Assembly: GCA_021847245.1 (NCBI GenBank)
Contig: JAJZUC010000008.1
Coordinates: 1 to 64,000, forward strand
DNA: 64,000 nt
Reading direction: 5' to 3'
DNA from: Deltaproteobacteria bacterium
GTDB lineage: Bacteria > Desulfobacterota > Desulfuromonadia > Geobacterales > Geobacteraceae
Of this stretch, positions 1-53,319 are shown piece by piece. Positions within the stretch are counted from its first letter, which is position 1. The number at the start of each line of letters is the position of its first letter. The notes beneath the pieces were generated by a model, which saw only the letters and a program-made list of their open reading frames with translations, was not told the DNA's origin and made no database searches. The translations under genes and the position numbers were made by a program.

Positions 1-101
1 CCCGATAGCTTCATACCCGGCCGTTACCAGCCACGCATGTATCGGTAGGTTACTGTTGATGGGACAACAGGTTTTCTCTTGTTGCCAAGGAAAACAATCA
101 T

Positions 102-36735: not shown

Positions 36736-37018
36736 GGTGGAACGGGCGCGGGAGATCCAGTTGGAGCGCTTCAGGGGGACCAAGGTCCACTGCAATGCCC
36801 ATATGACGCCACGCCAGATACGGAAGTTCTGCGAGCCGGATGCCGGCGGCCACCGGTTGCTGGAGATCGTCACCGAGAAGCTCGGCTTCTCGGCTCGCGC
36901 CTATACGCGCATCCTGAAGGTGGCCCGGACTATTACCGATCTGGAAGGGACGGAGAATATCCGGGAGCATATCGCCTAGACGATTCAGTACCGGAGTCTG
37001 GATCGGAAGGCGACCTGA
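36735..37018 (+). pseudogene. comM/yifB 3'-end fragment (c)
   Basis: GGCGCGGGAGATCCAGTTGGAGCGCTTCAGGGGGACCAAGGTCCACTGCAATGCCCATATGAC...CGGAGTCTGGATCGGAAGGCGACCTGA; internal stop. Confidence 0.85.
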
Positions 37019-37058: not shown

Positions 37059-37087
37059 TTGACATTCTGGCGATAAGTATTTTATAA
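37059..37087 (+). promoter_or_regulatory. sigma70-like promoter TTGACA-N17-TTATAA
   Basis: Direct reading; 37059-37064 and 37082-37087. Confidence 0.65.
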
Positions 37088-37091
37088 GCTT

Positions 37092-37304
37092 ACGTTATTC
37101 CTCGTTAGCATGAGGCGTTTGCACAAACACAGGCTACTGCCCGGAAACGTCGAAAGACGCCAATGGGTAGACCAGGTCTTGCCGGATTAAGGCTTGACTT
37201 AAGGTAGCTGGTCCTATGGGCCTACGTTGTGCATTGCTGAAAATCTACGAGAGGGGAATCACGGCACGCTATCCATCATGCCACGGTTTTCCGTGGCTTT
37301 TTTT
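37092..37304 (+). ncRNA. candidate structured RNA, unknown class
   Basis: Promoter upstream; stems TGCACAA 37120-37126/TTGTGCA 37227-37233, CGTC-GAAA-GACG 37148-37159, GACCAG 37170-37175/CTGGTC 37208-37213, TTAAG 37187-37191/CTTAA 37198-37202; terminator GCCACGG-TTTT-CCGTGGC-T7. Confidence 0.5.
37280..37304 (+). terminator. intrinsic terminator
   Basis: GCCACGG tttt CCGTGGC TTTTTTT. Confidence 0.9.
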
Positions 37305-37621
37305 ATTACTCAAAGTTGAAAGCGAAAGGTGGTGGTGATCCAAATTGGGCAGTCATAGTAGCACCTACTCACTCTCCTCCCACTAATCCAGCGGTAATCA
37401 GTCAAGCATTTTCTCCATTCCCATGCCTTGAAGATTACACGCCGATGGTGTGCGGGTAATTCAGGCGGGGAAGCTCTATTCCTCCCTTACAAGCTCATTT
37501 TATCAATATCTGACGTCACGCGTTTATTTTGCTGTGGTTCGGCACGAGCACGCCTGATGGCGCTGTGCAGACTCACGCCAATGCGTGAGATGCCATTGCG
37601 TTTGGCGTCATGGATGGAACT

Positions 37622-38934
37622 CACTACTGTCCGGTTAATAGTTGAATAAGTTCAGCTGGTTGCAGTCAGGAGTGTCGGGGTTTTGCTTGAGAGCCTCTGT
37701 AACCAGCGATGAAATGGGCTTTTTCTCGAACAAGTTGACCTCCAGAATCTGTAGAAAAGTGTAGAGCGAACACGGAATGCCCAGCTTCTTTTTCGTGATC
37801 GCCACCAGCAGGTAGATGCACAAGGCAACCCATATCTGGCTCTTTACGGCATTGACCGACGTACCGATGAACGACTTGATTCGCAGGTGCTGCTTGATCC
37901 ACTTAAAGAACAGTTCAACCTGCCAGCGCTGTTTGTAAACCGTGGCTACGGTCTCTGCCGGGATCTCGAAGTTGTTCGTGAGGAACACGAGTCGTTTGTT
38001 CCGCTCTTTGTCAACATAGCTGACCCGGCGCAACCTGTCCGGATATCCTTTTTTCGACTTCTGCGTCACCAGGGTGATGATCTGGTCTGCCCTTACACCC
38101 GCTTCGTTGTCCTTTGGATGGGAATACAGCCGTTTGCATTTCAGGTTATCCTTGGCCCGGACAACGAAGAATGCCCCCTGTTTGTGGATGGAGAAGAGTC
38201 TGGCAAAATCGACATACCCTCTGTCCATCGTGTAGATGGCATCCTTTGCAACCGGCAACTGATCCAGCATCCTGACGTCGTGGACCTTGCCGGTGGTAAT
38301 GGATACCCAGGTCGGAATGGGACCGCGCAGATCAATGAGCGTATGCATCTTGACCGCTGCCTTGGTCTTGCGGAACTCGGCCCACGGGAATAGGGAAAGG
38401 CACAGGTCAATGGTGGTCGAGTCAAAGGCATAGAGCGGTTGAGTAAGCTCAACGGCGATGGCGTCACTCTGATAAAGCCGTTGCGCCATGCCGATTAGCA
38501 CATGACCGAAATCCTGGAAGATGCGCCAGTCTCTGCGCTCGTTCGCATCGGCAAGCGTCGCGCGGGAGACATCACCACGGAAGCCGATGTGGTACAACTT
38601 CTCCTGGTGAGAGTTTAGGCAGGTTTCAATATCCCGCAGGCTCTCGCGCCCTGCCATTTGGGCATATGCCAGGCAGAGGAACTGGTCATAGGTCGAGAAC
38701 TTCTTCTCCCGATATTCGCCACGGTACCGACGGACGCAGAGATTGAATTCGTACCGGGGCAGAAACTGGAGAAGCTGCTTGAAAACGGTTGGTCCGGTGT
38801 GCATTGCTACCCTCCTGGAATGCTAGGAAGGCTACACCCGGAACGAATTCATGTCGAAAAAAGAACAATTGTGTCAAAGAACATTAAGTTCAACAGGTTA
38901 CAGCTGTACAATCAGTTTTTACCGGACAGTAGTG
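37622..38934 (-). mobile_element. IS4-family insertion sequence with 9-bp TSD
   Basis: Terminal IR CACTACTGTCCGGT at both ends; GATGGAACT repeated at 37613-37621 and 38935-38943. Confidence 0.9.
37635..38804 (-). CDS. IS4-family transposase
   Basis: DDE-type; YAFDSTTIDLCLSLFPWAEFRKTKAAVKMHT, YTMDRGYVDFARL, VYKQRWQVELFFKWIKQHLRI (YREK-like). Confidence 0.93.
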   Translation of the reverse strand: MHTGPTVFKQLLQFLPRYEFNLCVRRYRGEYREKKFSTYDQFLCLAYAQMAGRESLRDIETCLNSHQEKLYHIGFRGDVSRATLADANERRDWRIFQDFGHVLIGMAQRLYQSDAIAVELTQPLYAFDSTTIDLCLSLFPWAEFRKTKAAVKMHTLIDLRGPIPTWVSITTGKVHDVRMLDQLPVAKDAIYTMDRGYVDFARLFSIHKQGAFFVVRAKDNLKCKRLYSHPKDNEAGVRADQIITLVTQKSKKGYPDRLRRVSYVDKERNKRLVFLTNNFEIPAETVATVYKQRWQVELFFKWIKQHLRIKSFIGTSVNAVKSQIWVALCIYLLVAITKKKLGIPCSLYTFLQILEVNLFEKKPISSLVTEALKQNPDTPDCNQLNLFNY

Positions 38935-38943
38935 GATGGAACT

Positions 38944-40680: not shown

Positions 40681-42000
40681 ATGGAAGCATTTCGTACCGA
40701 CAATGCCCTGCTCAGGTTAACAAATATCAAGAAGTCTTACAAAAAGAGCGAAGGAGAGGAACACCTGGTACTTGATGACGTCAATCTCGAGATCAACGAA
40801 GGAGAAATCGTTGCCCTGCTTGGTCGGTCCGGATCGGGCAAGTCCACGCTGCTGCGCATCATTTCTGGCCTTACACGACAAGTTGCCGGCGAGGTGATCT
40901 ACTGCGGCAAACCAGTGAAGGGACCTGTAGACGGCTTGGCCATGGTGTTTCAGACGTTTGCCCTTTTCCCGTGGCTGACGGTACTGGAAAACGTCGAACT
41001 TGGCCTGGAGGCAAAAGGGGTGCCCCAGGAAGAACGGCGGCGCCGGACGTTGGCGGCCATTGACCTGATCGGATTGGATGGATTTGAATCGGCCTACCCC
41101 AAGGAACTGTCCGGCGGCATGCGCCAGCGGGTCGGCTTCGCCCGCGCCCTAGTGGTGGAACCGACCCTGCTTCTGCTGGATGAGGCCTTTTCAGCTTTGG
41201 ATGTACTGACCGCCGAGACACTTCGCACCGACCTGATCGAACTCTGGCATGAGCGGCGGATTCCCACCCGAGGAATACTTCTGGTCTCCCACAATATCGA
41301 GGAAGCGGTCCTCCTGTCAGACCGGATAGCGATTCTGGGGAGCACCCCGGGCCGGGTGGTGGCGGAGATCGACGTATCACTGCCGCACCCCCGCGACCGG
41401 GAGGACCCTGCTTTCCGGCAGATCGTCGATGATATCTACGACCTGATGACCCAGCGTACCCGCGCCGTAGCCGGGAAGGCAGAGGCTGTTCCCCTCTCGC
41501 AACGTCTCCCGGAGGCCCATATCAATCGGTTGGCAGGCCTCATGGAGGCATTGGCGAGGGAGCCGTATAATGGGAGGGCGGACCTGCCGGAACTGGCTGA
41601 TCAGATGGGTTTCGGGGTAGATCACCTATTTCCTCTCCTCGAAGCGTTGGATATCCTTGCTTTCGCCCGCGTCGAGGGAGGGGATGTGGAGCTAACCCCT
41701 TCGGGGAAAAGCTTTGTTGACTCCGATATCTTGCAACGTAAGGAGATCTTTGCGATACATTTGATCAGGCATGTCGGTCTCGTGGCCCATATTCGCCGGG
41801 TGCTTGATGATCGCCCCGGCAACCGTGCCCCAGAAGAACGCTTCTTGCGCGAGCTTGAAGACTTTTTCAGCGAGGAAGAGGCGGAACGGGTACTGCGGGT
41901 GGCTATCGAGTGGGGGCGCTATGCGGAACTCTTCGCATATGACGAGGGGGCTGGCATGCTCAGCCTAGAAAACCCGGTCGGCATTGAAGAGAAGGAGTAG
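40681..42000 (+). CDS. ABC transporter ATP-binding protein with C-terminal AAA-associated domain
   Basis: GRSGSGKST, LSGGMRQRVGFARAL, LLLDEAFSALD; ~170-aa C-terminal extension. Confidence 0.88.
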   Translation: MEAFRTDNALLRLTNIKKSYKKSEGEEHLVLDDVNLEINEGEIVALLGRSGSGKSTLLRIISGLTRQVAGEVIYCGKPVKGPVDGLAMVFQTFALFPWLTVLENVELGLEAKGVPQEERRRRTLAAIDLIGLDGFESAYPKELSGGMRQRVGFARALVVEPTLLLLDEAFSALDVLTAETLRTDLIELWHERRIPTRGILLVSHNIEEAVLLSDRIAILGSTPGRVVAEIDVSLPHPRDREDPAFRQIVDDIYDLMTQRTRAVAGKAEAVPLSQRLPEAHINRLAGLMEALAREPYNGRADLPELADQMGFGVDHLFPLLEALDILAFARVEGGDVELTPSGKSFVDSDILQRKEIFAIHLIRHVGLVAHIRRVLDDRPGNRAPEERFLRELEDFFSEEEAERVLRVAIEWGRYAELFAYDEGAGMLSLENPVGIEEKE

Positions 42001-42003
42001 CTG

Positions 42004-42922
42004 ATGGTTTCTAAAGAACACGGCCGACAGAAAAAAGGGGGCCGCACGCCTGTCGGTCCTGTCCAACACGATTCTGATGGTTGCCAAGCTTGTTGTCGGT
42101 GTCGTATCCGGATCGGTGTCGATTCTCTCGGAGGCAATCCATTCCGGCATCGACCTGATCGCCGCGGGCATCGCCTGGTACTCCGTCCGTGAATCAGGAA
42201 AACCTGCCGATGATGCCCACCGTTTCGGGCATGGCAAGATCGAGAACGTCGCCGCAACTGTTGAAGCGGTGCTCATCTTCGGTGCGGCGTCTTGCATCAT
42301 CTGGGAAGTCGTTCGTTCATAAACTGCGGTCAGGGGTTGTCGAAGTTGAAAGCCTGGGGTTTGGTGCAACTGTCATGGCCGCTTCCGCCATCGCGAACTA
42401 TTTCGTTTCCCGGCATCTGTTGAATGTGGCGGTCAAGACCGATTCAGTTGCACTTGAAGCCGATGCCATGCATCTGAGAACGGATGTTTACACCTCGGCC
42501 GGGGTTCTCGGCGGACTTGTCGTCATCAAGCTTACCGGCATTACCATGCTTGACCCGATTGTCGCCATTGTAGTTGCCCTGATAATCATAAGGACGGCAT
42601 GGGATCTCAGCAAGACCGTCTTCTTCCATATCCTCGACGTCAAACTTCCGGATGACGAAGAAGCAATGATTCATGACGTGATGAAGCGATACCCATTGCA
42701 GGCTCATCGAATATCACAAACTGCGGACTCGAAAATCCGGCCATATCAGACACATCGACATGCATCTGGTTGTACCGAAGCAAATGACCGTTGAAGCTGG
42801 ACATGCCCTCAGCCACCAGATTACAACGAATATTGAGAGTTGCCTGCCTTACAGTCATATTCTGGTTCATATCGAGCCGTGTCCTGTGGCTGTGAACGAT
42901 GTGCCGTGGAATGCCCAATAGT
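42004..42922 (+). pseudogene. cation diffusion facilitator (CDF) transporter, frameshifted
   Basis: LSVLSNTILMVAKLVVGVVSGSVSILSEAIHSGIDLIAAGIAW...HRFGHGKIENVAAT in one frame, TDSVALEADAMHLRTDVYTSAGV in another, HIDMHLVVPKQMTVEAGHALSH in a third. Confidence 0.85.
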
Positions 42923-42926
42923 CGTT

Positions 42927-43135
42927 ATGGCACCGCTTTCTGCAACGCCCACATGACACAACGGCAGATCAGTAAATACTGCTGTGGGCATCGACTTCTG
43001 GAGGTAGTCACGGAAAAGCAGGGCTATTCCGCCCGGGCGTACACCTGCATCCTGAAAGTGGCGCGGGCGGTCGCGGACTTGAAGGGAACGTATATACGAG
43101 CATATCTACGAGGCGATCCAGTATAGGGTTGTAAC
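42927..43135 (+). pseudogene. comM/yifB 3'-end fragment (d)
   Basis: CACCGCTTTCTGCAACGCCCACATGACACAACGGCAGATCAGTAAATACTG...GGTAGTCACGGAAAAGCAGGGCTATTCCGCCCGGGCGTACACC. Confidence 0.85.
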
Positions 43136-44428: not shown

Positions 44429-44444
44429 TTGCCACATGAGCTAC

Positions 44445-44524
44445 GGCGATGGAGTTCGCCCTTAACCGCTTCTCTACCGAAGCTGATAACTCCTACCTTA
44501 CAAAACGAGGTAGGAGTTTTTTAT
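44445..44524 (+). ncRNA. fluoride riboswitch (crcB motif) 1 with intrinsic terminator
   Basis: GGCGATGGAGTTCGCC..TAACCGCTT..GAAGCTGATAACTCCTACC, terminator arm GGTAGGAGTT-T5; pseudoknot GGAGTT/AACTCC. Confidence 0.93.
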
Positions 44525-50357: not shown

Positions 50358-50377
50358 TTGCCAAAATAAAATCGAAC

Positions 50378-50457
50378 GGCGATGGAGTTCGCCATAAGCG
50401 CTTCCCCAAAGCTGATGACTCCTACCTTTATTATCAGGGTAGGAGTTTTTTGTTTTT
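50378..50457 (+). ncRNA. fluoride riboswitch (crcB motif) 2 with intrinsic terminator
   Basis: GGCGATGGAGTTCGCCATAAGCGCTTCCCCAAAGCTGATGACTCCTACC...GGTAGGAGTTTTTTG. Confidence 0.95.
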
Positions 50458-53221: not shown

Positions 53222-53238
53222 TGTCAATAAACCGCTCC

Positions 53239-53319
53239 GGCGATGGAGTTCGCCATTAACCGCTTCGACCTGAAGCTGATGACTCCTACCTTTCATGTGC
53301 GAAGGTAGGAGTTTTTTTT
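53239..53319 (+). ncRNA. fluoride riboswitch (crcB motif) 3 with intrinsic terminator
   Basis: GGCGATGGAGTTCGCCATTAACCGCTTCGACCTGAAGCTGATGACTCCTACC...GGTAGGAGTTTTTTTT. Confidence 0.96.

Follow-up and report, generated by a model that had tools for sequence, protein, structure and literature searches.

The window analysed here, that is the whole stretch of DNA of 64,000 nucleotides, contains a structured leader, an IS4-family insertion sequence, and the genes of an ABC permease, an ABC ATPase and a CDF-type cation transporter (Table 1). The initial annotation had described the leader as lying ahead of an ABC transporter operon from which an IS4 element had split it off; operon and insertion sequence are both confirmed, and all the coordinates given there agree with the sequence. 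A fluoride/ion-resistance island adjoins the M-box operon: three fluoride riboswitches (RF01734, 60–62 bits) lie on the forward strand within 9 kb (44436–44502, 50369–50431 and 53230–53295) and precede a gene of the CPA2-type Na+/H+ exchanger family, a gene for a ClC-type channel containing CBS domains, and a HAD/P-type-ATPase-like fragment. Upstream of the leader, a short ORF (36737–36979, forward strand) resembles by eye a Mg-chelatase/ComM-type C-terminal fragment, and a similar sequence recurs near 42899–43126, perhaps as a small decayed repeat. At the edge of the window (1–71, reverse strand) there is a 3'-truncated match to the group II intron family RF02012.

Table 1. Features of the leader and of the operon behind it, with the basis of each assignment.
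Feature	Position	Strand	Basis
Sigma-70-type promoter: TTGACA 37059–37064, N18, TATAAG 37083–37088	37059–37088	+	Sequence
M-box (ykoK) Mg2+ riboswitch aptamer, RF00380, complete (model 1–169)	37094–37262	+	cmscan, 142.8 bits, E 2.8e-32, cut-off 44
Intrinsic terminator, riboswitch expression platform: 7-bp stem, UUUU loop, U7; hairpin 37280–37297	37280–37304	+	Sequence
Shine-Dalgarno region AAAGGTGGTGGTGAT of leader ORF	37325–37339	+	Sequence; GGAGG instead in 5 of 31 distinct relatives
Leader-peptide ORF, TTG start at 37345, MGSHSSTYSLSSH-stop; relatives M[D/E]SHSSEYPLPIPFPRR-stop	37345–37386	+	Present in 42 of 97 M-box leaders
Strand 1 of switch, UCAAGCA, 15 nt past stop codon, pairs with strand 2	37402–37408	+	Helix 1:2 covaries in relatives
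Strand 2, UGCCUUGA, common to both mutually exclusive helices	37424–37431	+	Comparative
Structured element: long stem 2:3 (P1) around inner hairpin 37434–37460; strand 3 UUCAGGCGGGGAA 37460–37472	37416–37476	+	Model R1, z-scan, covariation
IS4-family insertion sequence; transposase 37635–38804 (-)	37622–38934	-	14-bp terminal inverted repeats CACTACTGTCCGGT; 9-bp target duplication GATGGAACT
ABC permease, two BPD_transp_1 domains, 574 aa	38944–40668	+	Pfam PF00528, two stretches; orthologues behind M-boxes
ABC ATPase with C-terminal AAA_assoc_C domain	40681–42000	+	PF00005, PF09821
CDF-type cation transporter, two frameshifts (pseudogene or assembly error)	42029–42882	+	tblastn, three frames, 71–74% identity

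Scanning of the window against Rfam with cmscan identified the element between promoter and terminator as a full-length M-box, scoring far above the curated cut-off of the family. Both a full-aptamer score and a terminator just downstream are found here, and in relatives the element stands upstream of known Mg2+ transporter genes (MgtE_N, NRAMP, CorA and P-type ATPase); its identity as an M-box Mg2+ riboswitch is virtually certain. The initial annotation had assigned the RNA to an unknown class, a proposal that by its own account was to fall with a clear hit to a known one, and the match to RF00380 rules this out. The sRNA families RF02884 and RF02871 scored far below their cut-offs, with matches falling around the terminator. 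M-boxes are present in 87 of 141 genomes of the same order, and the genome under study has a second one on another contig, approximately 60 nt ahead of an MgtE_N/CBS gene.

The structural details noted from the letters alone fit this assignment. The hairpin with a GAAA tetraloop (CGUC-GAAA-GACG, 37148–37159) and the exact long-range pairing of 7 bp (37120–37126, UGCACAA, with 37227–37233, UUGUGCA) are both M-box helices, and the terminator is perfect (GCCACGG-UUUU-CCGUGGC-U7). The leader folds at -74.7 kcal/mol, compared with -62.7 ± 4.5 kcal/mol for shuffled sequences (z -2.65). Of the promoter first proposed, TTGACA-N17-TTATAA, both boxes are present (the second at 37082–37087), and a spacer of 18 nt with TATAAG gives a better -10 box, placing the transcription start at about 37094, where the aptamer begins. 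Among 97 related M-boxes, a TTGAC box occurs within 50 nt upstream in 63 and a terminator at the corresponding place in 85. The GGCGUUU/AGACGCC pairing suggested as an alternative fold does exist; it is incompatible with the conserved fold of the M-box, and its complementarity is probably fortuitous. In a search for an M-box antiterminator across 85 leaders, with the 5' strand of the aptamer tried in this role, the best complementarity was equal to that of shuffles. It was also borne out that no ORF explains the aptamer; a leader-peptide ORF and an RNA switch are located 3' of the terminator.

Orthologous permeases are encoded directly behind an M-box, with no insertion sequence in between, in G030, G352, G356, G414 and G349 and, outside the order, in G244. 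This bears out the earlier suggestion that the ABC operon has a riboswitch-like leader, and the permease would be the gene originally controlled by the leader of the window. For three orthologues from the search of the class, in G040, G361 and G416, no M-box was found in the sequence retrieved, the G361 gene lying near a contig end. A standalone sRNA, the other reading offered at first, is not needed, although the IS4 element now cuts the leader off from the operon. The two copies of its target duplication are at 37613–37621 and 38935–38943, and the element ends 9 nt ahead of the start codon of the permease. Given this position between leader and start codon, the leader might be an orphan that IS4 has uncoupled and that yields only a short terminated RNA without a target; in the same direction point the loss of prolines from the local leader peptide and the frameshifts in the downstream CDF gene. 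We regard this as a real but lesser possibility: aptamer, terminator, Shine-Dalgarno site, ORF and both helices of the switch are intact, so that any decay must be recent, transcription might read through the insertion sequence, and the conserved module in the relatives would be left unexplained. With no prolines left in its peptide and IS4 between leader and operon, the window copy is nevertheless probably uncoupled and beginning to decay. As to the CDF gene, its intact counterpart in G003 (71–74% identity) has an M-box and the gene of an OprB-type porin ahead of it; in that genome a second M-box without leader ORF (L039, G003:C63:31741–31908) stands directly ahead of an OprB-family porin gene and a CDF gene, an arrangement that would amount to M-box control of an outer-membrane porin.

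Comparison of the sequence 3' of the 97 M-boxes separated them into two kinds. The motif TTGGNNAGTCATAGT occurs with at most two mismatches in 42 of these leaders and with at least four in the other 55, three mismatches being found in none. A degenerate 15-mer has 21 exact sites in 58 relatives, 19 of which lie just 3' of an M-box, the other two being in a second module of G053 and in G051. In 297 genomes across the phylum, the window excepted, the exact motif does not exceed background, and a longer form of it is found almost solely within the order. The motif belongs to an ORF behind the terminator, with a Shine-Dalgarno site, a TTG start and 13–20 codons, whose product begins with M[D/E/G]SHS and often ends in EYPLPIPFPRR. 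Among 31 distinct ORFs, 21 have 17 codons; starts are TTG (30) or ATG (1), stops TAA (18), TAG (7) or TGA (6), and the Shine-Dalgarno core, GGTGG, GGAGG or GGTGAT, lies 8–13 nt upstream of the start. The commonest peptides are MDSHSSEYPLPIPFPRR and MDSHSSEYPLPIPFLRR. Stops are tightly clustered in frame 0, and the first stops in frame 1 are widely scattered. A GTG-started ORF inside GGTGGTGG was discarded, its frame not being kept between species because the spacing between Shine-Dalgarno site and TTG varies.

The peptides are rich in proline, with 62 proline codons against 42 ± 5 in composition shuffles, none of 2000 of which reached 62. The motif PxP occurs in 15 of 28 distinct peptides, and many relatives have alternating prolines (P-x-P-x-P-x-P) at codons 9, 11, 13 and 15; the peptide of the window has no proline and hence no PxP. 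On the other hand, no clear purifying selection was seen on the C-terminal half of the peptide (115 synonymous versus 442 non-synonymous codon differences, from pairs that are not independent), and the N-terminal codons AGT-CAT-AGT are nearly fixed, third positions included, indicating that part of the conservation is at the nucleotide level. Both observations, the latter in the near invariance of AGTCATAGT at synonymous sites, would be expected if the motif were an untranslated RNA or DNA element, for example a binding site for a protein or an sRNA, with the ORF a by-product of conserved nucleotides. Such an element would account poorly for three different stop codons at about one codon position, an ATG once in place of the start, the exchange of GGTGG for GGAGG, the narrow range of ORF lengths, and Ile-Pro encoded by five codon pairs among the relatives, and we consider it unlikely.

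The ORF is followed by a structured element, which in the window takes part in a switch spanning 37402–37472. In segments of 75 nt from 25 distinct leaders, the folding z-score averages -2.73 between +20 and +95 past the ORF stop, with 16 of 25 below -2, and is near 0 from +60 on and across the ORF itself. Alignment of the whole downstream leader with MAFFT gave only six consensus pairs, and the element was therefore excised and realigned (alignment A2). On this alignment, 85% of the cells of P1 pair, and the covariation score, which falls when the partner strand is slid, was reached by none of 500 shuffles. The second helix, 1:2, comprises 7 bp, and its paired fraction was reached by 2 of 2000 partner shuffles; these controls for covariation and pairing leave the relatedness between the sequences in. 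Compensatory changes in helix 1:2 include A-U to G-C as well as U-A, G-C and C-G at one position. Strand 1 begins approximately 7–15 nt past the ORF stop among the relatives. Helices 1:2 and 2:3 share strand 2 and exclude each other, and the window strands UCAAGCA, UGCCUUGA and UUCAGGCGGGGAA keep both pairings in spite of their different letters. On this comparative footing, the ORF and the two mutually exclusive helices are very probably genuine features of these leaders. An intrinsic terminator after the switch was considered and rejected: there is no U-tract, so that the switch is not itself such a terminator, and the fold signal fades. The first 100 nt past the ORF stop are richer in C (0.34) than in G (0.22), a composition at most suggestive of Rho-dependent termination in the leader.

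Model R1, a covariance model of P1, finds 31 matches in 137 genomes, 30 of them in ORF-carrying M-box leaders and one in the second module of G053, although it was trained on members of the set searched; likewise the window copy, with 31.3 bits (E 1.1e-5), had been in the training alignment. The G053 module, in which no M-box is detectable, has a complete ORF (MESHSSEYPLLIPRPQR) and switch (L188 544–682, G053:C135:4343–4481), which indicates that the two can stand alone. It precedes a gene with a signal-peptide-like start, the G003 homologue of which is an OprB-type porin.

The distribution of the module follows the genes controlled. Leaders with the ORF lie mostly ahead of P-type ATPase, NRAMP, CorA or ABC genes, and M-boxes without it mostly ahead of MgtE_N genes: the first gene behind ORF-carrying leaders is a P-type ATPase in 17 cases, NRAMP in 9, MgtE_N in 6, ABC in 4 and in the window, and CorA in 3, against MgtE_N in 46 and others in 9 behind M-boxes without ORF. 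It might be argued that only the M-box and its terminator matter, with an unstructured 5' UTR behind them in which the motif is inherited without function; M-box and terminator do suffice in known systems (PMC4072509), and 55 of the 97 M-boxes manage without the extra module. With covarying helices, a position-specific fold, an association with transporter type and one occurrence without a detectable M-box, the downstream module makes this quite unlikely.

We therefore favour the reading in which ORF and helices act together with the M-box, and consider it likely that two regulators are stacked, a Mg2+-dependent terminator followed by a translation-coupled attenuator resembling MgtL. With plentiful Mg2+, the M-box would stop transcription at the terminator hairpin. 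Transcripts that pass it would carry the short ORF with its own Shine-Dalgarno site, and the position of the ribosome relative to the ORF stop codon would select helix 1:2 or helix 2:3. Since strand 1 starts so close behind the stop codon, a ribosome on the last codons or on the stop would mask it and favour helix 2:3, and a departed ribosome would allow helix 1:2. That attenuation is controlled by the ribosome in this way seems to us somewhat the better bet. The nature of the second signal is proposed more tentatively: if the ORF behaves like enterobacterial MgtL, its translation may be slowed or aborted at low Mg2+ and so supply a second Mg2+ input. The output would be a transporter, be it a P-type ATPase, NRAMP, CorA or an ABC system.

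In MgtL of Salmonella, prolines are found at codons 3, 5, 7 and 9, and translation decides whether the attenuator stem forms (PMC6460261); drop-off at low Mg2+, through the EPDP motif, also contributes (PMC11282234). The leaders described here share with MgtL of Salmonella and E. coli mgtA (and mgtP of mgtCBR) a short ORF, which in many relatives has interspersed prolines (codons 9, 11, 13 and 15), overlapping alternative stems and a position upstream of Mg2+ transporters. They differ in the start of the peptide, which is M[D/E/G]SHS with the destabilising EPDP motif absent, in the RNA itself and in their position behind an M-box. The alternating prolines of these relatives suggest, by analogy, a device comparable to MgtL that would have arisen independently. 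A small ORF conserved between M-box and operon is also known from Mycobacterium tuberculosis, Mbox-uORF2 (Rv1805A), reported to be mycobacteria-specific and to work through a translational platform and Rho (PMC12810186), whereas in the present leaders an intrinsic terminator precedes an ORF with a covarying helix pair. This mycobacterial arrangement is the nearest report to the tandem one, and peptide and platform differ. Neither an M-box in tandem with a leader-peptide attenuator nor an M-box–ABC association was found in the open-access literature searched, and the ORF and RNA switch behind the M-box are apparently undescribed.

With previously known M-boxes, the present one shares the complete aptamer, the terminator directly behind it and the location upstream of ion-transport genes; it differs in the second, apparently translated module that follows and in its target. 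The targets named in PMC4072509 are CorA, MgtA, MgtE and, newly, NRAMP-related genes; no mention of an ABC system as M-box target was found in its text, and the ABC operon of the window is a new M-box association. The same paper describes mgtE-nramp M-box operons, which are common in this order, and the NRAMP-related Mg2+ transporters NrmT, likewise a family tied to Mg2+ through the M-box. The ABC permease/ATPase pair belongs to an unrelated family and is a candidate Mg2+ transporter. A search of the PDB with the permease returned only distant nitrate/bicarbonate permeases. No M-box was found in the sequence fetched upstream of three plasmid-borne orthologues (57–59% identity). These plasmid permease/ATPase pairs (L190–L192; Azospirillum, Paraburkholderia) adjoin CDF and MgtC/SapB genes or a VIT-family gene, a neighbourhood that suggests that the substrate of these ABC systems, whose family carries a nitrate/sulfonate/bicarbonate annotation, is a divalent metal. 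The CDF and VIT-family neighbours, together with a statement in PMC12810186, citing earlier work, that divalent ions other than Mg2+ can associate with M-box aptamers, could also mean that this M-box variant senses, and the ABC system handles, an ion such as Mn2+, which is improbable given a full-length, high-scoring standard aptamer, the response to Mg2+ of the tested M-boxes upstream of NRAMP genes (PMC4072509) and the MgtC/SapB genes that follow two of the three plasmid orthologues.

By the logic applied to NrmT, the recurrent link between M-box and ABC genes singles out an ABC family of unknown substrate as a candidate for Mg2+ transport that can be tested. It is conceivable, if still less than an even prospect, that the order uses the M-box switch together with an unrelated, MgtL-like attenuator, reading Mg2+ (or translation capacity) twice on one mRNA, and that its regulon includes the double-permease/AAA_assoc_C ABC systems as a further class of M-box-controlled Mg2+ transporters. 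If so, the M-box aptamer and the translated, proline-rich leader ORF, two principles of Mg2+ regulation known from different bacteria, would be joined in tandem, and setting ORF-carrying leaders against those that lack the ORF would reveal how regulatory layers are gained or lost according to the transporter controlled.
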